Assembly: GCA_029259945.1 (NCBI GenBank) | Contig: JAJDEF010000032.1 | Coordinates: forward strand, 1-64,000 | DNA length: 64,000 nucleotides | DNA from: Planctomycetota bacterium | GTDB lineage: Bacteria; Planctomycetota; Planctomycetia; Pirellulales; Lacipirellulaceae | Direction: 5' to 3' | Part shown: one piece after another, positions 18,663 to 45,111 of the stretch | Layout: each line of letters opens with the position of its first letter | How positions within the stretch are numbered: position 1 is the stretch's first letter | The notes under the pieces: generated by a model | Database searches by the model: none | What the model saw: the letters and a program-made list of their open reading frames with translations, nothing else | What the model was told of the DNA's origin: nothing | Translations under genes and position numbers: made by a program

Positions 18663-18917
18663 AATAAGGCAATCACGCTTCTCCTTGAGAAAAATCAGCC
18701 TAGGAAAGCCAAATTCCCCCATTTTGCTATCCACCCCTACTGCACGACCCGCCCACTTAGGCACTTCCTTGATCCTCAGAGAGAGACCACCCGATACGGA
18801 TTTTAGGAGTGTCTAGGCCATGAAACTTTCGAGTAGAATGGCCGTGGCAAATTGCAAGAATTGACGACGAGCGGGGAACTAGTCACGATGGTGCATTCTC
18901 TTCGAGGGACAACGGCA

Positions 18918-19796
18918 ATGACATTAGTGAGTGGCTTTGAAAAAATTGTTCGGCAGGACGAGCCGCTTGACGAGCGTACTTGGCTAAAGCTGGGTGGGGT
19001 GGCGTCGTTCTATGCCGAGCCCAAGTCGGTGGACGAACTGGCTGCCCTAGTCCGACGTTGTTGCGACGAGGGAGTCCCGATCCGAGTTCTTGGCAGCGGT
19101 TCCAATGTTCTGGTCCGCGACGAGGGCGTCTCTGGCATGGTGGTGAGCCTTTCGGGAGTTGGCTTTACCGATATCCAAATCCGCGGCAACCGCCTAGTTG
19201 CCGGGGGTGGTGCGAAGCTGGCACATGCGATTAGCGAGACTGTCCGCTCTGGACTGGCAGGCCTAGAACCGTTGGTCGGCATCCCGGGCACCATAGGTGG
19301 TGCCCTGCATGGAAATTCTGGTAGTCGCGGTGGCGACATTGGCCAATGGGCTTGCCGAGCAACCGTGATGACCCGTTCGGGCGAGATACTGCAGCGAGAT
19401 CGAGAGGACTTGGTTTTCGCTTATCGTCAAAGCAGCCTTGATGAGCTTGTTATTCTCAGCGCCGAATTTTTGCTGGAAGATGAAGATCCCGAACTGCTCA
19501 CCAAACGAATGCAAAAGCAGTGGATCGTCAAGAAAGCTGGCCAGCCGCTTTCCCATCAAAATGTCGCCAATGTCTTCAAAAACCCGCGCGGCATGAGCGC
19601 TGGAATGCTGATCGATCAGGCAGGGCTCAAGGGAACCCGAGTGGGCGGCGTCGAAGTGAGTCAACAACATGCCAACTTCATCGTGGCCGCCGAGGGTGCA
19701 ACCAGTCAGGATGTCTTGCGATTGATCGACATCATTCGCAGCCGAGTTGCCGAGCGATTGGGCGTCGAGTTAGAAACCGAGCTTGAAATCTGGTAG
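18918..19796 (+). CDS. murB: UDP-N-acetylenolpyruvoylglucosamine reductase
   Basis: About 292 residues; an FAD enzyme making UDP-N-acetylmuramate in peptidoglycan synthesis. Visible: TWLKLGGVASFYAEP, the FAD loop VLGSGSNVLVRDEGVSG, VGIPGTIGGALHGNSG, the catalytic serine segment QPLSHQNVANVFKNP and the C-terminal GTRVGGVEVSQQHANFIVA. It is the short (type II) form. I chose the ATG at 18918 preceded by GAGGGA; an in-frame ATG at 18888 and a TTG at 18852 are alternatives. The next gene starts 45 bases after the stop and looks like ftsQ, preserving the common murB-ftsQ order. Confidence 0.92.
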   Translation: MTLVSGFEKIVRQDEPLDERTWLKLGGVASFYAEPKSVDELAALVRRCCDEGVPIRVLGSGSNVLVRDEGVSGMVVSLSGVGFTDIQIRGNRLVAGGGAKLAHAISETVRSGLAGLEPLVGIPGTIGGALHGNSGSRGGDIGQWACRATVMTRSGEILQRDREDLVFAYRQSSLDELVILSAEFLLEDEDPELLTKRMQKQWIVKKAGQPLSHQNVANVFKNPRGMSAGMLIDQAGLKGTRVGGVEVSQQHANFIVAAEGATSQDVLRLIDIIRSRVAERLGVELETELEIW

Positions 19797-19841
19797 CCCA
19801 GCGGTTTGTTTCCATTAAGAGCAGCGCACGGAGGTGTTGCA

Positions 19842-20819
19842 GTGGCACGGATTACAAAAAAACAACGTCCCAAATCAGACGAAATCCCCTCGAAGAGCTT
19901 TCTAGCTCGGGCAAGGTTAAAACTGCTCCAGCAAACGCGAGTGGTGGCTGCCTTGGTGGTGGTGCTCCTATTGGGCTGGGCAATGCAGCTTGTCTGGCAA
20001 CAAGTTTCCCCGGCGATTATCCACCGGGATCGGTACTTGCTCACCGCCGACCGCATTACCACGACCCCTTTGCCTGAGTGGATTACCGCAGACGTACGGA
20101 CTGAGGTAGTACACAACTCCGCGCTCGACCGACGCTTGTCGGTTCTCGACGATGCCTTTGTGAATGTGGTACGAGACGCTTTTGTTTTGCATCCTTGGGT
20201 AAAGTCGGTCGACCGAATTATCAAAAGTTACCCGCCCAAAGTGCATGTCGAGCTGACTTTTCGACGACCTGTGGCCGTGGTCGAGCTAGGCGGGCCCCAA
20301 GGAGTTGAGCTGATTCCCGTCGATCCACTGGGGGTGCAGCTGCCTGCCGCCGATGTGCCAGAGATTCGTAAACGCTATCTCCCACGAATTGGCGGGATTA
20401 TCGGTCGCCCACCTGTCGGGCAGCAATGGACCGACCCGCGTGTTGCGGGGGCGGCTGCTTTGGCGGATAAACTGTCGGACGAATGGGAGTCGCTGCACTT
20501 GGTCGATATCTTGCCTTCAGCGCGTCCAGAGATTCAGGACGACCATCGCTATTTTGTGTTTGATTTGATCACCAGCGGAGGCACCAGAATCGTCTGGGGG
20601 GCTGCTCAAAATGCGGACCTGCCCGGGGAAGATTCCTTCCAAGCCAAGCTCGGACGTCTGCGAAAGTGTGCCAATGAACGCGGGCCGTTAGATTCAGTAC
20701 GAGGGCCTGCAGTCGTCGACGTTCGCAAAGAACTGGCCATCACCCCGAGAACGGTCAAGAAAACACCGACACCACGAACGGTGAAGAAAGGCTCTGCCCC
20801 CAGCGAAATCGTGAAATGA
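19842..20819 (+). CDS. FtsQ-like POTRA membrane protein
   Basis: About 325 residues, starting at GTG 19842 with a good GGAGGT at 19830-19835. A short basic cytoplasmic segment precedes one membrane span (VVAALVVVLLLGWAMQLVW). The periplasmic part resembles the FtsQ POTRA and beta regions: FVLHPWVKSVDRIIKSYPPKVHVELTFRRPVAVVEL, then a VDPLGVQLP segment corresponding to the conserved D-x-x-G of FtsQ. The C-terminus is basic with repeated TPRTVKK. Location directly after murB supports an FtsQ/DivIB relationship. Planctomycetes lack FtsZ, so its partners and role are uncertain. Confidence 0.65.
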   Translation: MARITKKQRPKSDEIPSKSFLARARLKLLQQTRVVAALVVVLLLGWAMQLVWQQVSPAIIHRDRYLLTADRITTTPLPEWITADVRTEVVHNSALDRRLSVLDDAFVNVVRDAFVLHPWVKSVDRIIKSYPPKVHVELTFRRPVAVVELGGPQGVELIPVDPLGVQLPAADVPEIRKRYLPRIGGIIGRPPVGQQWTDPRVAGAAALADKLSDEWESLHLVDILPSARPEIQDDHRYFVFDLITSGGTRIVWGAAQNADLPGEDSFQAKLGRLRKCANERGPLDSVRGPAVVDVRKELAITPRTVKKTPTPRTVKKGSAPSEIVK

Positions 20820-37576: not shown

Positions 37577-37794
37577 GAGTGAGAAGCAACTGAAGAACGA
37601 AGTGGAGGGCGTGGTTGCCAGGGCTAAGGCGCTTGGCAGCAAAGCTCATCATAGCCGATGGCACCCGCAATGACGACGGGTAAGCTGCACAGGCGTGTTG
37701 GGTAGGAGATATCGCTGGATTTTGTTCTTGCAATAGTACAGCCCATTAAGTAGTGTACTTATGTATACTTTCCGATATTAGAGGTCGATGCCCA

Positions 37795-38538
37795 GTGTTA
37801 AGCGAAATTCCAGGGGAGCAGTTTGCGAATGTTTTGGAAGACTGCGCACGGGAAGTTTTGGCCGAGGGGGCAGTCGAGGGGCCGCCGGTCGACGCCATTC
37901 GCGTTGCTCGACGGTTGCAATTGGTCGTAGCGCGCGATTCGTCGATGGACGAGCGGGCTCGCTATGTGCGAATTGGAGAAAGGGGTCGTGGAGGACGCGG
38001 AACTATCTTGTTAGCCGAAGATCCTCGCGCAGAACGGCGCCAATGGGCGGTCGCTCATGAGTTGGGGGAGTATGCTGCTCACCGTGTGTTTGCAGTGTTA
38101 GGGATTTCGGTGGCAGACATTCCGCCCTCAGGGCGTGAGGTGGTTGCCAATCGCTTGGCGAGCTGTCTGTTGTTGCCTCGCGAGTGGTTTGCAGCTGATG
38201 GCATGGATCTAAATTGGGATCTTTATGAGCTGAAAAGTCGATACAGCACGGCAAGCCATGAATTGATTGCTCGGCGGATGCTGGAGATGTCGCCGCCGGT
38301 GATGCTGACGGTATTCGACCAAGGTCGCATGACGTGGCGGCGGAGCAACATGTTGAGGCGTCCCCCAAGAATGACTCCGCCCGAAGAGAGCACTTGGCGA
38401 GTGGCTTTTGATGGTGGACAGTCTGCTGAATTTTCTGAGGCTTGCTTGCCTGAGGGGATTGCTGAAATACGGTGTTGGCCAATTCACGAGCCCGGCTGGC
38501 AACGCGAAATTTTGCGAACGGCGTTAGAAGATTGGTAA
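37795..38538 (+). CDS. ImmA/IrrE-family metallo-endopeptidase
   Basis: A 247-residue protein with an IrrE/ImmA-type peptidase domain: AVAHELGEYAAHRVF (HExxH with the later His) and EVVANRLASCLLLPREWF (the conserved N-x-FAxxLLxP-like segment). Start GTG at 37795 has AGAGG upstream; a GTG at 37753 is possible. Such proteins cleave regulators of mobile elements or stress responses. Unlike many family members it has no HTH domain. It is divergently arranged with rimO. The nearby HTH-PTS IIA gene could be a partner, but nothing shows it. Confidence 0.85.
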   Translation: MLSEIPGEQFANVLEDCAREVLAEGAVEGPPVDAIRVARRLQLVVARDSSMDERARYVRIGERGRGGRGTILLAEDPRAERRQWAVAHELGEYAAHRVFAVLGISVADIPPSGREVVANRLASCLLLPREWFAADGMDLNWDLYELKSRYSTASHELIARRMLEMSPPVMLTVFDQGRMTWRRSNMLRRPPRMTPPEESTWRVAFDGGQSAEFSEACLPEGIAEIRCWPIHEPGWQREILRTALEDW

Positions 38539-38553
38539 TGCCTGTGTTTATTT

Positions 38554-39402
38554 TTAGCGTAGTTCGGCGATAATTTCATCAACGATGTAGGGTTTGCCAA
38601 AAACGGCTGAGGCCCCTGCTGCACGGATTTGCTCGACGTGTTCAATACGTGGGAAATCGAGCAGAGCCACGACCTTGCCGCCTTGATTTCGAACGCGGTC
38701 GCAAAAATTAGTGAGGCGGGTAAGTTCCTTCTTGCTGAGCTGGCCGCCGTCCCAAATGCCAGCGGCTACATCTGGCGGGAGATTTGCTGAATCGCCGTGG
38801 CCAGCCCAAGTGGAATTGATTCCTGTGTTGGCTAAGGCCGCTGAGAGCGATTCGAATACAGAAAAATCTTCGGCGTCAACCACAATGGTTCCGAGAGGTT
38901 GCTGCGGCGTCGAGGGTGCAGCGGCCAGATAGCGACCCGCTTGCGGATGGTCTAACGGCAGCGACCAAGGAGGGCAGATGCCGTCGGTCAAATTCTGCTG
39001 CGCCGCTCGCCACCAAGCGGCAAATTCATACCAGTAGAGCCGAAGCGTGCCATGCGGCGGCGAGCCGGTCCGCATTTCCCCCTCACACCAAGTGCCCGCG
39101 ATGACAATGATGCGCGAAAGCGGGGCTAATTCGCTGAGTTGGTTGGCGTCGCGTTGGAGATATTCTCCAGGGGTTGATTGGGCGAGGAGGATCAACTCGG
39201 GAGGTGCATTGCTGCGAAGGAAATCGATTGCCGTAGGGATATCGGCGACAGATTGCCAAGATTCCTTGCTGCTGACTTCGGTGATTGCGGAGGCGAATTC
39301 ATGTTCATGCCAATCGCCCACGGAAAGCACACTGACGAGTGCGTCTGAAGCAGGGCTAAGCTTGCTGTCGGTACTTGCTAAATTGGCAGAGGGATAGGGC
39401 AT
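38554..39402 (-). CDS. Receiver-like protein of unknown function
   Basis: A 282-residue protein that I do not recognise as a named family. Two alpha/beta parts can be seen: residues 1-120 with ALVSVLSVGDW, PPELILLAQSTPGEY and SRIIVIAGTWCEG, and residues 170-282 with GTIVVDAEDFSVFESLSAALANTG, GKVVALLDFPRIEHVEQI and AAGASAVFGKPYIVDEIIAELR. The FGKPYIVDEI end resembles the K-P-F/Y motif of response regulator receivers, but no aspartate phosphorylation site is evident. I infer a degenerate double receiver. It lies 28 bases downstream of the HTH-PTS IIA gene and probably shares its operon. Confidence 0.6.
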   Translation of the reverse strand: MPYPSANLASTDSKLSPASDALVSVLSVGDWHEHEFASAITEVSSKESWQSVADIPTAIDFLRSNAPPELILLAQSTPGEYLQRDANQLSELAPLSRIIVIAGTWCEGEMRTGSPPHGTLRLYWYEFAAWWRAAQQNLTDGICPPWSLPLDHPQAGRYLAAAPSTPQQPLGTIVVDAEDFSVFESLSAALANTGINSTWAGHGDSANLPPDVAAGIWDGGQLSKKELTRLTNFCDRVRNQGGKVVALLDFPRIEHVEQIRAAGASAVFGKPYIVDEIIAELR

Positions 39403-39430
39403 GCTGACGAGTCAATATTCTGAAGGATCG

Positions 39431-40138
39431 CTATTCCGTAATTTCTTCGTCGCGGCTTGTGATGAGCCGGTGAGCCTCGATGGCATCTGCTGACGATCGT
39501 AAGCTGGCAAGCCAATCGGGATCGTTGATCATGCGACTTAGTCGGGCAAGTATACGAAGGTGTTGGTGGTCGTCGGTTGCGCAGATCAAAAAAAACACAT
39601 CGGTGAGGCCGCTGGTTCCGCCGAATGGGATTCCCTGCCCCGTTATTCCAAGAGCAAGGATGGATTCACCCAGGATGGATGATTGTGGCCGACGAGGATG
39701 GAGTAAGGCAACTCCAATGTCGAGGGCAGTCGGGTGAATGGCTTCACGTGCGGTGACCGCCTCGGCCATTTTTTCTGGATCCCACAGCATGCCTGTGTTG
39801 GCAGCTAGCTCGCACATGCTTGAAATGACGCTCGCTCGAGTGCGTGCGAGAAGTGGGGTCGCGATGGCTTCGACAGGCAACAACGTTGCGATTTGGATTT
39901 CTTGACTGTCGCGGGATTTAGCGCGCTCGAGGTTGGTTTCCATTTTCGCGAGCTGGATATCGTCAGAGGCGCCAATCCGATCTTCAAGCCAGTGGTGGAT
40001 TTCTGCGCGAGAAAAACGCCATTGTCCACCGACTCGACGACCGGGCAGCTTGTCGCGTTCGGCGAGTTTGGTGATTTGCGCAGGCAGCATGTGCAAGTAA
40101 GTTGCCAAACTGCTGATGTCAAAGTTGTCGTCTGCCAC
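39431..40138 (-). CDS. HTH plus PTS IIA (fructose/mannitol type) regulator
   Basis: A 235-residue fusion. The N-terminus (about 8-52) is an excisionase/MerR-like helix-turn-helix: ISSLATYLHMLPAQITKLAERDKLPGRRVGGQWRFSRAEIHHWL. The C-terminal two thirds are a PTS EIIA domain of the fructose/mannitol type, with the phosphorylatable histidine in GVALLHPRRP (H147). PtsN-type proteins regulate rather than transport; here phosphorylation by the PTS could control DNA binding. The gene precedes the receiver-like gene. No other PTS component (EI, HPr) lies in the window. Confidence 0.85.
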   Translation of the reverse strand: MADDNFDISSLATYLHMLPAQITKLAERDKLPGRRVGGQWRFSRAEIHHWLEDRIGASDDIQLAKMETNLERAKSRDSQEIQIATLLPVEAIATPLLARTRASVISSMCELAANTGMLWDPEKMAEAVTAREAIHPTALDIGVALLHPRRPQSSILGESILALGITGQGIPFGGTSGLTDVFFLICATDDHQHLRILARLSRMINDPDWLASLRSSADAIEAHRLITSRDEEITE

Positions 40139-40482
40139 TAGAAAAACTTTAAGAAAGGAAAAATTAGATTTGCCGACCGCCGAATGCTAGCACTCGACGG
40201 GTCTCGCCATTGTCGCGAGAAATGGGGGGGGCTGTCCAGTTCTTTTCTGCTCAAGCTGGCTGTGGGTGGTGAGTGTTTGGTAATCCGCCTTGACATGATT
40301 TCGCTAAATCAACACAATCTCGCACGCTCATGGTGAAGGAACTCCCCCAGAGATTCCTTTCACACTAGTGGGAGCATTTCGCAAGCGAAAACGGATTTTC
40401 GCACAGCGATTCAACAGAGACTGGCGATGCTCAACCCCCGCAATTGGTTGACGACTGCCACAACCAGGCAAGGAGGCCTGGC
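40139..40482. other. 344-base gene-free region before the Mur-ligase-like gene
   Basis: No open frame with support and no clear repeat. It separates divergent transcription units (HTH-PTS IIA on minus, Mur-like on plus) and should hold both promoters. I could not pick a convincing -35/-10 pair. Confidence 0.4.
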
Positions 40483-41946
40483 ATGTTGTGCCCAAATGAA
40501 CAATCGATTGGGGTATCGCTCGCCGAGCTATTTCCTGAAGCCACCCGAACTGGGGCTGGTCGTGTGATGGCCACCTCTTGCTGTACCGACTGGCGTCAAC
40601 TCGAGCCGGGTGATGTCTATGTCGCTTTGCCTGATTCAGGCGACGGCACCACGGACGGTCACGAGCATGCTCGTCGAGCCGCTTCGCACGGCGCGATTGC
40701 TATCGTGTGTGAACAGCCAGTGCCCGTGTTTGATGTGCCAACCTATTTAGTGCCAGACAGTCGTGTCGCGTTGGGCGAACTGTCGCAAGCCTTGGTCGGC
40801 AATCCGTCGAATACGATCTCAGTGATCGCCGTGACTGGCAGTCATGGAAAGTCAACAACCATCGCATTGCTAGAATCGATTTTTTCAGCGGCTGGCAAAC
40901 ATTGCGGAACGATGAGTAGCCTGGGTTGCTACGACGGAATGAGTCATAGCGCCGGGATCAGCAACTCTCCTTCAGCCCCCGCGATTGCAGAACGGCTTGC
41001 TCGCATGGAGGCAGCCGGGTGTACGCACGCATTGCTCGAAGTATCGAGTCGAGCGATCAGCCAAGCTCGTCTTGCAGGAATAAACTTGGATTCGGTGAGT
41101 GTGACAAACGTCACCTCTGCTCACCTCGACTTACACAATTCGCTGGTGACATATCGCGAGGTTCAACGCCGTGTGTTGGATTATCTGTCGCCGGGCGGTG
41201 TAGTAACTTTGAATGCCGACGATCCGGAATGCGTCAAGTGGCTTGATGAGGTTCAGGGGCCTGTGTTGACGTGGGGATTGGGTGATCAAGCTGAAATCAC
41301 TGCCCAGGTCGTGCAACAATTTGCGAACGAGCAGGTTTTTGTTCTCTCTGCTGGTGACGAGTCGGCGGCCGTGCGTAGCTCGATGGTGGGTGATCACCAT
41401 GTTTCCAACTGTTTAGCAGCAGCCACGGTGGCTATGACCTACGGCATCGACTTGCAGACAATTGCTGCCGGGATTGAAGCGGTCGATCGTTTGTCCGGTC
41501 GGATGGAGCGAATTGATTGTGGACAGGGTTTTCCTGTTTACGTCGATGCGGCAGATACACCCGATGCGTTGCGAGCCAGCTTACGAACGGCTCGTCAATT
41601 GGCTCAAGGTCGTGTGATTTGTGTACTGGGCCCTATGGCGGGCCATTCAGCTTCCGTCGACTACACGCTGAGGCATATTGTCAGTCGCATGACTGATTTA
41701 GCGATTGCTTCGAGGCCACTTGGCAATGGAGATGACGAACAACTTGACTCGGCCCCGATCGAGATTATTGCAGATCGAGGCGAAGCAATTGCCTATGCGG
41801 TTGCGATTGCAGAACCGGGAGATGTCGTGGTCATTGCTGGAAGCCAACCTCGTCCGATACCAATCTTTGGTGAATCAGGCGATGCACAGCTTGCTCGGCA
41901 ATTGCTTTATAGCCGCAATGAGTCAGCAATTCGCTTAGCCGCTTAG
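40483..41946 (+). CDS. Degenerate MurE-like Mur ligase family protein
   Basis: A 487-residue protein with the Mur ligase fold, closest in layout to MurE. The start has an ideal AAGGAGG. The ATP loop is present as AVTGSHGKSTT (K123) instead of TGTNGKTTT. Residues needed in MurE are altered: EVSSRAI (R190 for the His of EVSSHAL), TSAHLD (A213 for the Asp of TRDHLD), REVQ (Q228 for the carbamylated Lys), VDAADTPDAL (D358 for the His of VDYAHTPDAL), and no DNPR motif. It is probably not an active tripeptide synthetase, so it may be a diverged or regulatory paralogue. It precedes a MurF-tail-like gene and murG. Confidence 0.8.
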   Translation: MLCPNEQSIGVSLAELFPEATRTGAGRVMATSCCTDWRQLEPGDVYVALPDSGDGTTDGHEHARRAASHGAIAIVCEQPVPVFDVPTYLVPDSRVALGELSQALVGNPSNTISVIAVTGSHGKSTTIALLESIFSAAGKHCGTMSSLGCYDGMSHSAGISNSPSAPAIAERLARMEAAGCTHALLEVSSRAISQARLAGINLDSVSVTNVTSAHLDLHNSLVTYREVQRRVLDYLSPGGVVTLNADDPECVKWLDEVQGPVLTWGLGDQAEITAQVVQQFANEQVFVLSAGDESAAVRSSMVGDHHVSNCLAAATVAMTYGIDLQTIAAGIEAVDRLSGRMERIDCGQGFPVYVDAADTPDALRASLRTARQLAQGRVICVLGPMAGHSASVDYTLRHIVSRMTDLAIASRPLGNGDDEQLDSAPIEIIADRGEAIAYAVAIAEPGDVVVIAGSQPRPIPIFGESGDAQLARQLLYSRNESAIRLAA

Positions 41947-42024
41947 AAAAATACTACTTAGCGAAAACCATAAAGTCGTCGGCAAATAAGAGTTTAGATA
42001 ACACGAAGATTGGATACAGAAAAC

Positions 42025-42561
42025 ATGGACTGGACTGATACCCTGATGCTCGACTCGAAGAGTAGTCACTCGGATGGGAGAAATCGTTTGCCGGCGGTGA
42101 CCACGCAGGGTAATGCGACCCATGCTCTCTCTGCTCGGTTGATTGCCGTGCAAGGTATTTCGTTGCTTTATGTTGAGGGGACGACGAGAGAGGAAATTTC
42201 AACGGCCCTAGAACTGTTGCGCGGATTTAGAGCCACCGGACGCCGCGTCGTTCTTTGTGATACAGCGAATATGGTTGCGGGGCGCCCCCTCGGACGCGAA
42301 ATTGTCGAATCGGGAGCCGTCTCTGCGGTCATAAGTTGTGGCGGGTGTGGGCGTGATTTAGCGATTGGTGCTCGCGATGCCGGACTCGATTTATCGAGCG
42401 TGGTGGTTTGTCGCAACTCGTCTGCCGCTTGCGAACTGCTCGCCTGCCGACTAGCACCAGGCGACACGGCCCTTGTATGGGGAGTAGGACAACGTGAGTG
42501 CAATCAGATAGTTGCCCGGCTAGAACAGCGTTTCGCATCGTCATCTGCTGCGGCAGCCTGA
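42025..42561 (+). CDS. Stand-alone MurF C-terminal-domain-like protein
   Basis: A 178-residue protein whose core (about 45-170) resembles the C-terminal domain of Mur ligases, above all MurF: GISLLYVEGTTREEISTALELLRGF, GRRVVLCDTANMVAGRPLGREIVESG, AVISCGGCGRDLAIGARDAG, SSAACELLACRLAPGDTALVWGV and NQIVARLEQRF. In MurF the same order appears as a LGDMLELG segment, then GE, and GDVVLVKGS. There is no ATP-binding central domain. It starts at ATG 42025, 78 bases after the MurE-like gene. It could be a relic of murF, or the missing partner for the degenerate MurE-like protein. The fold assignment is inference. Confidence 0.6.
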   Translation: MDWTDTLMLDSKSSHSDGRNRLPAVTTQGNATHALSARLIAVQGISLLYVEGTTREEISTALELLRGFRATGRRVVLCDTANMVAGRPLGREIVESGAVSAVISCGGCGRDLAIGARDAGLDLSSVVVCRNSSAACELLACRLAPGDTALVWGVGQRECNQIVARLEQRFASSSAAAA

Positions 42562-42738
42562 TCGTTCAGAAGTATTTTTAAGAAATGGAAAGAATAAGAT
42601 ACAACGAGGTTTCATCGTTGGTTTGTCGGATTGCGGGGTCTGACATTCCGCCCTCCCTGGGGTAGGAGCACAATAGCTTGCCGAAAGCAGCTTCTGGGTC
42701 AGCTGCTTTGGCGAGTGCTTCACGATGAAGCTTATGTC

Positions 42739-42777
42739 TGAGCGCCGGGGTGACATTTATGTCACCCCGGTGTCTCA
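42739..42777. repeat. Long perfect palindrome upstream of murG
   Basis: CCGGGGTGACA (42745-42755) and TGTCACCCCGG (42760-42770) form a perfect 11-bp stem with loop TTTA, extended by flanking CTGAG/CTCAG arms. There is no T-run after it. It lies about 75 bases before the murG start codon and could be an operator or an RNA hairpin in the murG leader. Confidence 0.65.
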
Positions 42778-42851
42778 GCGGATACAAAAGCCTGCGTGTG
42801 ATACCGCTGAATTCTCGGCAAGCCGGGCTTTGCTGCAAAGGAGTTTCCCGC

Positions 42852-44018
42852 ATGTCTGCTGCCCCTCATATTCTATTTGCCGGTGGTGGAGCAGCTGGAC
42901 ATCTGTTTCCTGGAATCGCTGTCGCATCGCATTTGTCACAGAAAATGCCTGAGGCACAAATTACGTTCGCTGGTCCCGGTCGGGCTAGCGAGAAGTATGC
43001 GGTGCGATCGGCCGGATATCACTACACGTCGATTCCAGCTCAGCCTGTACCACAGAATCCGCTTCAAGCTTTTCGATTTGTTACCGATAATGTCGCAGGA
43101 TACTGCGCTGCTAAGTGGATGTTGCGAGAAAAGCAGATTTCCTTGGTGGTCGGTTTAGGAGGATTTACTAGCACAGCAGTGGTGAGAGCCGCAGCGGCGC
43201 GAGACATTCCCTTTCTTTTGCTTGAGCAAAACGCAATTCCAAGTCGCACAACCCGTTGGATGTCGTCTGCATCAGCTAGGGTTTGCGCAGGCTACAAAGA
43301 AGTGAAGCCCCACCTTTCTATGGAGTCGCCAGTTGCTGTCACTGGTAATCCTGTACGCCCTGATTTCGAGCAACTCTATGAGCGCACCCATGCTTCCAGT
43401 CGGTCGTCCGAAGCGGCGACGATTCCGTTTTCTCAAGGCAATCAATCCCGACAAAAACGGGTGGTCATCCTTGGGGGTGCTGGTGGAGCTCGCTCTCTCA
43501 ACGAATCGATGCCTAAAGCGTTAAAACAACTTGGTAAGGTGATCAACGATTGGCAAGTAATCCACCAAACGGGCGAAGGTCAGCTACAGGAAACGGAGAG
43601 TCGTTACCGCCAGTACGGTGTTGATGCGATTGCAGTGGCGTTTATTGACGAAATCGCCTCAGTTCTATTTGCTAGCGACGTAGTGATATGTCGCGCTGGC
43701 GGGACTACCTTGGCTGAACTTGCACTTGCAGGAGTGCCCGCGATTTTGGTGCCTTATCCGTTGGCGATCGACGACCATCAAATTGCAAATGCCAAAGTGG
43801 TCGCCTCAGCAGGTGCTTGCCGATTGATTGATGAAACCTCGCAGTCGTTAGATAGGGCCCTAGCGACAGAGCTGAGCACACTGCTTGCCGATGAACACTT
43901 GCGAAGTGAAATGAACCAGAAAATGCAACGACTGGCACAGCCCCACGCTTCGGCGGATATCGCCGCGATGATTCAAGAGACACTCTGCGGCTCGCAAAGC
44001 AATCGGCTTGCTGCGTAG
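42852..44018 (+). CDS. murG: UDP-GlcNAc:undecaprenyl-PP-MurNAc-pentapeptide transferase MurG
   Basis: A 388-residue GT28 glycosyltransferase making lipid II at the inner face of the membrane. Start ATG 42852 with AAAGGAG upstream. Motifs: ILFAGGGAAGHLFPGIAVA, VVGLGGFTS, VVILGGAGGARSLNE and the UDP-GlcNAc site CRAGGTTLAELALAGVPAILVPYPLAIDDHQIANA. An insertion after NPVRPDFEQLYERTHASSR, about 20 residues, is typical of some lineages. It follows a degenerate Mur-ligase-like pair, while the other genes of a dcw cluster are absent. It is apparently functional. Confidence 0.94.
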   Translation: MSAAPHILFAGGGAAGHLFPGIAVASHLSQKMPEAQITFAGPGRASEKYAVRSAGYHYTSIPAQPVPQNPLQAFRFVTDNVAGYCAAKWMLREKQISLVVGLGGFTSTAVVRAAAARDIPFLLLEQNAIPSRTTRWMSSASARVCAGYKEVKPHLSMESPVAVTGNPVRPDFEQLYERTHASSRSSEAATIPFSQGNQSRQKRVVILGGAGGARSLNESMPKALKQLGKVINDWQVIHQTGEGQLQETESRYRQYGVDAIAVAFIDEIASVLFASDVVICRAGGTTLAELALAGVPAILVPYPLAIDDHQIANAKVVASAGACRLIDETSQSLDRALATELSTLLADEHLRSEMNQKMQRLAQPHASADIAAMIQETLCGSQSNRLAA

Positions 44019-44019
44019 C

Positions 44020-45111
44020 CTATCTCGGCTCGGGGATTTTTTGGACGGTACCGGGGGCAACCGCTTGGTGGCTTAGTGAACTTTCGAGTGCGGCGAAACA
44101 AAGTTCTAAGCTGGAGAGATTGTTTCGAGCGCTATGCGAGGGCTGACGTTTTTCTTCGATAGCACAAAGAAGTTCGCCCATCGTGCCGTGAAAACCATCG
44201 GGAAACCATGTGCCCTCGAGTTTTGGCGAGACGGTGCCTTTCTCCGTGATAATTTCGATTTGTTGATTGTCGGAGTCGGTGCCAGAACTACGGACGATAC
44301 CACGGCTGCCGCTGATCAAAACCTGGTCCCAGTTACCGTTTGGCACATAGGCGTCGAAAACTAGCGATGCTTGAGCGCTGGTATATTCAACGAAGGCTTG
44401 CGCGATCAAAGGCGGCATCATGCCTTGTTTTGCTGCTTGGGTCGCCGAGGCGTAGACCCTTTGCGCGGTTTGGCTCACCATGATCGTCGAAAGAAAATCG
44501 AACCAGTGGATGGCAAAGTCATAGAGAATCAAGTGGTAGATTTTCTCGAACTCGGTGCCTCGTGTCCAACTGTGGTCCCAATGGACGCCACAATGAACCC
44601 CGACCACGTCACCGATCAATCCAGCTCGTACGACCTCTCGTAAGTAGCTAAAGTGAGGAGCCCAACGTCCATTTTGGTTGATTGCGAGTAACACCCCTTG
44701 CTGGTCCGCTAAATCAGCAAGGCGTTTCCCTTCATTAATATCTAAGACAAATGGTTTTTGGCTAAGGGCATGTTTACCGGCCCGAAGCGCATCTTCGGTG
44801 ATCGGCGAGCGAACCTCTGGGTGCGTGGCGATGTCGATCACTTCGATGTCATCGATTTTTAGCAGGTCGCTACGGTCGGTGAAAACTTTGGCGTCGGGGT
44901 AGAATTTATCACGACGTTTTTCTGCGTTTTCGAGTTTTGGATCGCAGAAAGCGGCAACTTGGTATCCGGCGGCTTTGTAGGCTTGCAAATGATAGTCGGT
45001 GATTTCGCCACAACCGATCAGGCCAATTTTTGGCCGATAGTTTTTCGGGTCGCGTGGCATGTACGGCAAATCAGGAAATGCGATTTGCTTTGATTTGGTT
45101 TTTTGCGACAT
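44020..45111 (-). CDS. Gfo/Idh/MocA-family oxidoreductase
   Basis: A 363-residue NAD(P)-dependent oxidoreductase. The Rossmann loop IGLIGCGEITDYHLQAYKAAG (28-48) and the conserved SQKPFVLDINEGKRLADLA (equivalent to EKP) are visible; the C-terminal domain contains HCGVHWDHSWTRG. Planctomycetes carry many such genes, often for sugar or inositol derivatives. The nearest genes give no metabolic clue. It converges with murG, only one base apart. Substrate unknown. Confidence 0.88.
   Translation of the reverse strand: MSQKTKSKQIAFPDLPYMPRDPKNYRPKIGLIGCGEITDYHLQAYKAAGYQVAAFCDPKLENAEKRRDKFYPDAKVFTDRSDLLKIDDIEVIDIATHPEVRSPITEDALRAGKHALSQKPFVLDINEGKRLADLADQQGVLLAINQNGRWAPHFSYLREVVRAGLIGDVVGVHCGVHWDHSWTRGTEFEKIYHLILYDFAIHWFDFLSTIMVSQTAQRVYASATQAAKQGMMPPLIAQAFVEYTSAQASLVFDAYVPNGNWDQVLISGSRGIVRSSGTDSDNQQIEIITEKGTVSPKLEGTWFPDGFHGTMGELLCAIEEKRQPSHSARNNLSSLELCFAALESSLSHQAVAPGTVQKIPEPR

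Follow-up and report, generated by a model that had tools for sequence, protein, structure and literature searches.

The genes at 40483 to 44018 of the 64,000-nucleotide stretch of DNA analysed here (the window), which comes from the genome of a Bythopirellula (Lacipirellulaceae), are, with a probability of about 0.9 for collapse and selection taken together, the in-place remains of a murE-murF-mraY-murG cluster that selection has kept. The best reading of the locus is a repurposed Mur protein remnant accompanied by an independent RNA, the function of the remnant being one that we infer. Most of the peptidoglycan pathway was lost and the order murE-murF-RNA-mraY-murG collapsed in place, leaving a murE-like gene, a MurF C-terminal domain (the tail), a structured RNA and murG, with the proteins under purifying selection. 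The features discussed are the following.

18891 to 19796, forward strand: murB, another relic from the same cluster
19806 to 20819, forward strand: protein directly 3' of murB, without Pfam or NCBIfam match
40483 to 41946, forward strand: MurE-like protein of 487 aa with all three domains of the Mur ligase fold, retaining the ATP loop but not the peptidoglycan-substrate motifs
42025 to 42561, forward strand: orphan MurF C-terminal domain (tail), 178 aa, predicted structure with pLDDT 85.1
42599 to 42788, forward strand: structured RNA of about 190 nt between tail and murG, seen by covariation and a folding z-score of -8.8
42852 to 44018, forward strand: murG, 388 aa, glycosyltransferase motifs kept

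In FtsW-positive Pirellulales, murE is followed by murF (8/8 loci), then by mraY (6/6 scored) and then by murG (6/8, the other two loci ending before the murG position), and some of these clusters have flanking genes in common with the window locus. The FtsW matches of these eight loci lie on contigs other than that of murE. Among Lacipirellulaceae genomes of at least 90% completeness, the MurE-like protein and MurG are each present in all 28. They adjoin one another in 27, the exception being G005, where each stands at a contig end. Conservation of the ligase pair, which the preliminary description had proposed to examine, thus holds for the MurE-like member but extends for the tail to only 24 of the 43 family genomes; these tail carriers form one clade on the MurG tree (support 100/97). 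A frame-disrupted pseudogene is rejected on open frames and low dN/dS: frames are open in the family loci inspected, with no disrupted remnants among these relatives, and dN/dS of the locus proteins is 0.03-0.27 and once 0.40, with dS near saturation in many pairs. Together with the kept gene order, these values bear out the earlier suggestion of a changed function under selection. They also speak against functionless relics slowly decaying since peptidoglycan synthesis was lost, which we consider unlikely, even though motif erosion is graded from the FtsW-positive relatives to genus g4, MurG is gone from four family loci and peptidoglycan genes are described as already dispensable in Planctopirus in the relevant part of PMC10632474.

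The setting of the locus is a genome in which the canonical pathway (MurA, MurC, MurD, MurF, FtsW and PBPs) was not found by profile searches of the 92% complete assembly. Canonical murC, murD, murE and murF are absent from these searches, the only PF08245 matches being the MurE-like protein and FolC; the transpeptidase profile has zero matches in this genome and weak ones only in 5/43 family genomes; and FtsW/RodA is found in 0/43. MurA was not found in the window genome, where the sole EPSP-synthase protein is AroA, and neither was MraY, the sole PF00953 protein being WecA-like (131.5 bits to WecA and 59.5 bits to MraY, both under cut-off). The murB gene has Asn at the catalytic Ser/Cys column (VANVFKNP), and we suspect the protein that follows it to be FtsQ, from its place in the usual gene order and its size. 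The preliminary description had imagined a regulator of lipid II supply working beside a canonical pathway; this does not fit, because canonical Mur ligases, FtsW/RodA, transpeptidase, MurA and MraY were not found, and the separate canonical murE and murF sought as a check are absent, an outcome that the same description had counted against its own proposal.

Section 13 of PMC12283558 gives murA, murC, murD, murF, murJ and ftsW as lost in Pirellulales, and for Planctomycetia the relevant part of PMC10632474 calls murB "very conserved" and murE "semi-conserved". That peptidoglycan is nevertheless still made by enzymes evading the profiles, with the MurE-like protein as a working MurE, appears very unlikely. 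MurNAc and DAP have been reported from Rhodopirellula baltica cells (PMC4432640, in the part consulted), and profiles can overlook divergent homologues, as PF08245 did with the MurE-like proteins of g4; set against this are the missing FtsW/RodA, the scarce transpeptidase matches, a genome with AroA but no MurA, the published loss of wall genes and the disappearance of the SSH His and the DNPR motif.

The MurE-like protein itself is predicted to adopt the Mur ligase fold with high confidence (AlphaFold2 pLDDT 92.5), and Foldseek matches the model to MurE structures (best E 3.5e-38). It shares with MurE (TIGR01085) the whole three-domain fold, the ATP loop TGSHGKST (residues 118-125), the conserved Glu (E186) and the chromosomal place, and differs in falling under the family cut-off (245 vs 257.3 bits), in its lost substrate motifs and DNPR stretch, here SRPL, and in that its substrate pathway was not found. 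The SSH His is replaced by R190, the RDH Asp by A213, the carbamylated Lys by Q228 and the His of VDYAHTPDAL by D358. A kept ATP loop beside these changed residues is what had been noted from the sequence at the outset, and each is confirmed at its position; alignment error is ruled out, since the MurE of FtsW-positive Pirellulales carries H, D, K and H at these columns in 8/8 cases of the same alignment. The loss of the carbamylated Lys holds in the window but not throughout the genus, Lys standing at that column in 8/14 Bythopirellula rows, as well as in 4/7 of f15 and 3/4 of f17. Among the MurE-like proteins of FtsW-negative genomes, the ATP loop is kept in 56/60 and the SSH histidine in 1/60; genus g4 has the loop in 0/4, yet its MurE-like protein adjoins MurG.

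Such a pattern would suit a protein that in most genera has kept ATP binding but has given up joining an amino acid to UDP-MurNAc-dipeptide, a substrate for which no biosynthetic route was found. A different outcome would be a ligase acting with another amino acid and another sugar or lipid acceptor, whose product MurG, where present, glycosylates in a new peptidyl-glycolipid pathway. The full, confidently predicted fold, the widespread ATP loop, the Lys retained in f15 and f17, and the presence of a WecA-like transferase and MurG would all agree with it; A213, Q228 and D358, which replace residues at what we take to be catalytic or near-catalytic positions, and the missing loop of g4 count against it, and we regard it as rather unlikely.

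The gene after murE-like starts at ATG 42025 and not at TTG 42010, because the N-terminus M[DE]WTDT is conserved; the peptide M[DE]WTDT[LM]ML is found in most of the genus. That it resembles the C-terminal domain of MurF without the ATPase domain, as first described, is upheld: its profile scores 65-105 bits against the MurF C-terminal domain of relatives (8/8) and at most 6 bits against their MurE, with hhalign probabilities of 99.73 to MurF vs 75 to MurE, and a duplicated MurE C-terminal domain is rejected on these scores. The 78 nt from the murE-like stop to ATG 42025 hold neither the N-terminal nor the central ATPase domain of MurF. Compared with the MurF C-terminal domain (PF02875), the tail has in common the profile match to relatives and the place after murE; it differs as a free-standing gene with a new N-terminal peptide and a score below cut-off (17.4 vs 28.4 bits). 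In L181 a 388-aa frame after murE-like was considered as another MurF remnant and rejected, having no Pfam match.

The murG gene begins at ATG 42852 and not at GTG 42750, from which the extension would cross the new RNA and in G014 contains TAG. The gene had been called apparently intact; its glycosyltransferase motifs are kept, and it clears the NCBIfam TIGR01133 cut-off narrowly (251.4 vs 250.25 bits, computed on the translation beginning at 42750). A lipid I acceptor made by MraY was not found in this genome, and MurG may instead move GlcNAc to another polyprenyl-linked sugar, probably supplied by the WecA-like transferase.

We tentatively favour, at odds short of even, the view that the MurE-like protein, with the MurF C-terminal domain where present, is a non-ligating partner of MurG in a complex that would be a remnant of the MurE-MurF-MurG complex of peptidoglycan-making bacteria. 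The retention of ATP-site residues and the loss of substrate-site residues support such a complex. In Bordetella, where MurE and MurF are fused, the fusion protein has a KD of 0.57 uM for MurG (PMC6420597, in the part consulted); the present locus retains remnants of these same three proteins, which in Bordetella are active enzymes in a complete pathway. The plant protein PAP11, described below, offers a precedent for a MurE retained after the earlier Mur steps were lost. Divergence of MurE and MurG is coupled in a mirror-tree comparison (partial r 0.845), which is no evidence of contact because a neighbouring gene nearly equals it (0.789 and 0.726). Against a MurG partnership stand the four family loci without adjoining MurG, the loss of the ATP loop in g4 and the erosion of MurG motifs in g4 and g12. 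Moreover, MurG cannot be the only partner, because many other Pirellulales keep a MurE-like protein without adjoining MurG, which is present in only 67/197 genomes of the order.

Between tail and murG, the RNA comprises a closing stem P1, internal hairpins and a GC-rich 3' hairpin (42743-42772). It occurs in 58/72 loci, among them 40/41 of Lacipirellulaceae, the exception ending inside murE-like, and 8/8 FtsW-positive loci, where it lies 3' of murF and 5' of mraY. Rfam 15 gave nothing at E<=1 across 40000-44200, and at E<=10 only models far under the gathering score, mostly miRNA precursors, so that 6S, SRP or another housekeeping RNA has no Rfam support. The Rhodopirellula-1 RNA motif (in the part of PMC2864571 consulted), compared by its listing and not by sequence, is a candidate RNA listed for Planctomycetes and also for Proteobacteria. 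The RNA of the present locus has strong covariation support and would count as a new family; neither it nor the orphan MurF domain was found described in the open PMC literature searched. A genome repeat is rejected, the pre-murG hairpin being the only one of its sequence type among 11 long stems in the window; the RNA model, too, has no second main match in 400 kb of contig C15. G-U pairs are common, which disfavours a DNA operator; the 24 hairpins of this test were chosen as the best stem per upstream region and are therefore biased, and a separate test omits that hairpin. A leader of one gene is likewise disfavoured, as the downstream gene varies or is opposed (judged by open frames only).

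The RNA may be an independent non-coding RNA gene or the 3' product of a murE/murF transcript. It is unlikely that RNA and proteins are unrelated, the former a trans-acting gene held there by old neighbourhood and the latter kept separately: its near-constant presence in the family and in the FtsW-positive loci and the opposed strand of the next sizeable open frame in L079, L159 and L082 would fit this, whereas it has stayed beside MurE/MurF through rearrangements, and no sigma-70-like promoter site of its own was found in 41900-42900. A further reading, in which the MurE-like protein works with the RNA as one functional unit, already present in peptidoglycan-making Pirellulales and a reason why the protein outlives repeated wall loss, is very doubtful as a whole. 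Family loci with MurE-like and RNA but without adjoining MurG agree with it, as in G023, G029, G031 and G032 (66-89% complete; two with the tail), where MurG was not found in the downstream sequence available at the locus. Survival of this kind could be likened to that of PAP11 in plastids, the top Foldseek match of the MurE-like model (8r6s_Q, E 4.4e-39); in plants this MurE is retained without the earlier Mur steps (PMC12681378, in the part consulted). PAP11 has about 250 more N-terminal residues and is of an RNA polymerase-associated type, and the likeness drawn here is one of fold and gene retention only.

The presence of MurG in all Lacipirellulaceae genomes of at least 90% completeness qualifies the loss of murG printed for Pirellulales in section 13 of PMC12283558. 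The wider context is how Pirellulales build their envelope and divide without FtsZ and most wall genes, for which selection has kept a short list consisting of the MurE-like protein and the MurF fragment as well as MurG and MurB, together with a so far undescribed RNA, suggesting that old parts of the wall machinery have been given a new job.

By profile search, the peptidoglycan pathway is absent from the genome that holds the window (3.48 Mb in 44 contigs, 92.09% complete, 0.68% contaminated; window, contig C26:1-64000), a member of Bythopirellula, which PMC13315336 places in the family Lacipirellulaceae. The preliminary description had expected separate canonical murE and murF genes beside the pair considered here, and none was found in this genome, where the Mur ligase profile PF08245 matches only the MurE-like protein and FolC. 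The genomes compared are mostly metagenome-assembled and each gene was sought with one profile; among the 43 family genomes, FtsW/RodA was found in none and transpeptidase matches are weak and occur in five (best E 1.8e-8). PF00275 occurs in 39 of the 43, as a single match in 38 and as two pieces in G019, the protein of our genome being AroA (464.7 bits), and PF00953 occurs in 35, twice in four of them, the one in our genome being WecA-like. MurB (MurB_C) is present in 41 of the 43. PMC12283558 reports murA, C, D, F, murJ and ftsW as lost in Pirellulales and counts murG among the losses, but the latter does not hold for Lacipirellulaceae, because MurG is found in all 28 genomes that are at least 90% complete. 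Pathway absence is at odds with the published detection of MurNAc and DAP in Rhodopirellula baltica (PMC4432640), a species not identified among the searched genomes. FtsW-positive and FtsW-negative genomes occur together within five families of the order (f2, f3, f12, f16, f17), which suggests several separate losses.

Remnants of the pathway and a structured RNA lie in one group in the window:

40483-41946, forward strand: MurE-like protein
42025-42561, forward strand: tail, an orphan MurF C-terminal domain
42599-42788, forward strand: structured RNA, from alignment of loci, covariation and folding
42852-44018, forward strand: murG

The order of these genes is explained by eight reference loci from FtsW-positive Pirellulales (L149-L156), in which FtsW lies on contigs other than murE: the murE-murF-mraY-murG cluster has collapsed in place. 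Full-length murF directly follows murE in 8/8 of these loci, and mraY is the next gene in the six scored (L149, L150, L151, L153, L154, L155), in all of which murG comes after it; the sequences of L152 and L156 stop before the murG position. RimO and three more neighbours of the window locus also adjoin some FtsW-positive murE clusters. That the gene after the MurE-like one is a MurF C-terminal domain, as had been proposed, is borne out by the tail profile, which matches the MurF C-domains of 8/8 relatives and does not exceed 11.3 bits against MurE, MurC or MurD, and structure prediction (pLDDT 85.1) gives the tail the fold of a Mur ligase C-domain. Tail genes occur in 24 of the 43 family genomes, including 14/14 of the genus, and their carriers form a single clade on the MurG tree (support 100/97; L079, L063 and L066 not in the tree). 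Wherever the locus extends far enough, the Lacipirellulaceae order is MurE-like, tail (if present), RNA and MurG, with four exceptions (L066, L079, L081 and L082, from G023, G029, G031 and G032, 66-89% complete), which carry the MurE-like gene and the RNA, and in L066 and L079 the tail, with no MurG in the downstream sequence examined. Upstream of the group, at 37753-40138, lie an HTH and PTS-EIIA2 protein, a family-less protein and an IrrE-like M78 peptidase. In a comparison of 74 loci, the first has relatives in 23, the second in 32 and the third in 19, and some of these loci are FtsW-positive.

The usual place of ftsQ is after murB. At 18852-20819 of the window, murB is followed by a protein at this position, so that the contig carries, in these two genes, another relic of the division and wall cluster. 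The catalytic Ser/Cys column of MurB is occupied by Asn in the window protein; L190 and L194 have Ser there, L195 has Cys and L196 has Gln. In other lineages (f7 and f12; L165, L167, L184, L185, L186), MurE-like and MurB stay paired, murB being the next gene; in L167 the RNA sits between them.

The MurE-like, tail and MurG proteins are under selection. In 19 locus pairs (Nei-Gojobori; three gene comparisons with infinite dS excluded, many others near saturation), dN/dS is 0.05-0.26 for MurE-like, apart from one pair of genus g4 at 0.40, and 0.03-0.27 for both the tail and MurG, with 0.03-0.17 for the control gene RimO.

Two Pfam profiles recognise the MurE-like protein, PF08245 at 126.4 bits and PF02875 at 67.2 bits. 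It is predicted as a whole Mur ligase fold (pLDDT 92.5), for which the top structural matches are mycobacterial MurE and PAP11, a component of plastid RNA polymerase. The reported ATP loop (TGSHGKST) and the reported loss of the His of EVSSHAL, the Asp of TRDHLD, the carbamylated Lys, the His of VDYAHTPDAL and the DNPR motif were confirmed in full. FtsW-negative genomes supply 61 MurE-like rows, of which 60 can be scored at Lys123, Glu186 and the SSH His: ATP-loop Lys123 and Glu186 are each retained in 56/60, the SSH His in 1/60 (L079, with an intact EVSSHAL), the carbamylation Lys in 24/61 and Asp355 in 60/61. The four proteins without the ATP loop are those of the four g4 genomes (L173-L176), which PF08245 misses; they are open frames still adjoining MurG. 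Outside the family, 103 of 138 FtsW-negative genomes of the order sample have a PF08245 match at E<=1e-16, our own threshold, picked to part MurE from FolC, and 12 of the 138 keep a full-length MurF-type match, so FtsW absence does not equal pathway absence.

The structured RNA lies within the 290-nt stretch that separates the tail gene from murG. RNAalifold on 40 aligned loci gives 49 pairs, 33 changed on both sides. As the 3' hairpin had served to find loci, covariation was retested without it: 32 pairs are left, with 96.6% of cells paired and 20 pairs changed on both sides, any of five measures is reached in 0/500 shuffles, and slid versions pair 35-46%. The window sequence has a folding z-score of -8.8. 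A covariance model finds the RNA in 58/72 loci (18 of them not part of the model), with one main match per locus: 40/41 in Lacipirellulaceae, the exception (L084) stopping within the murE-like gene, 8/8 FtsW-positive and 10/23 others. Searches of Rfam gave no match at gathering score. A search of 1.31 Mb, 400 kb of it from contig C15 of our genome, gave no main match outside these loci, only complementary-strand echoes of the hairpin and a weak L161 match (E 0.004) behind the MurE-like gene of that locus. In measured loci, the RNA lies 61-444 nt downstream of the tail, MurE-like or MurF gene, save L183 (2.1 kb) and L177, where the contig starts, and 63-141 nt upstream of mraY in six FtsW-positive loci. 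The RNA is unlikely to be the leader of only one gene, since the next sizeable open frame is on the opposite strand in L079, L159 and L082.

MurE-like and tail would act as partners of MurG, because the substrate side is lost while fold and ATP loop are kept and because MurE-MurF-MurG contact is known (PMC6420597); MurG would use another lipid-linked acceptor. The MurE-like gene is, however, found without MurG in the four family loci, and without MurG beside it elsewhere in Pirellulales. This indicates a separate role for the MurE-like protein and makes the partnership with MurG less likely. As plant PAP11 demonstrates (PMC12681378), a MurE can acquire a different function once the earlier Mur steps are gone.
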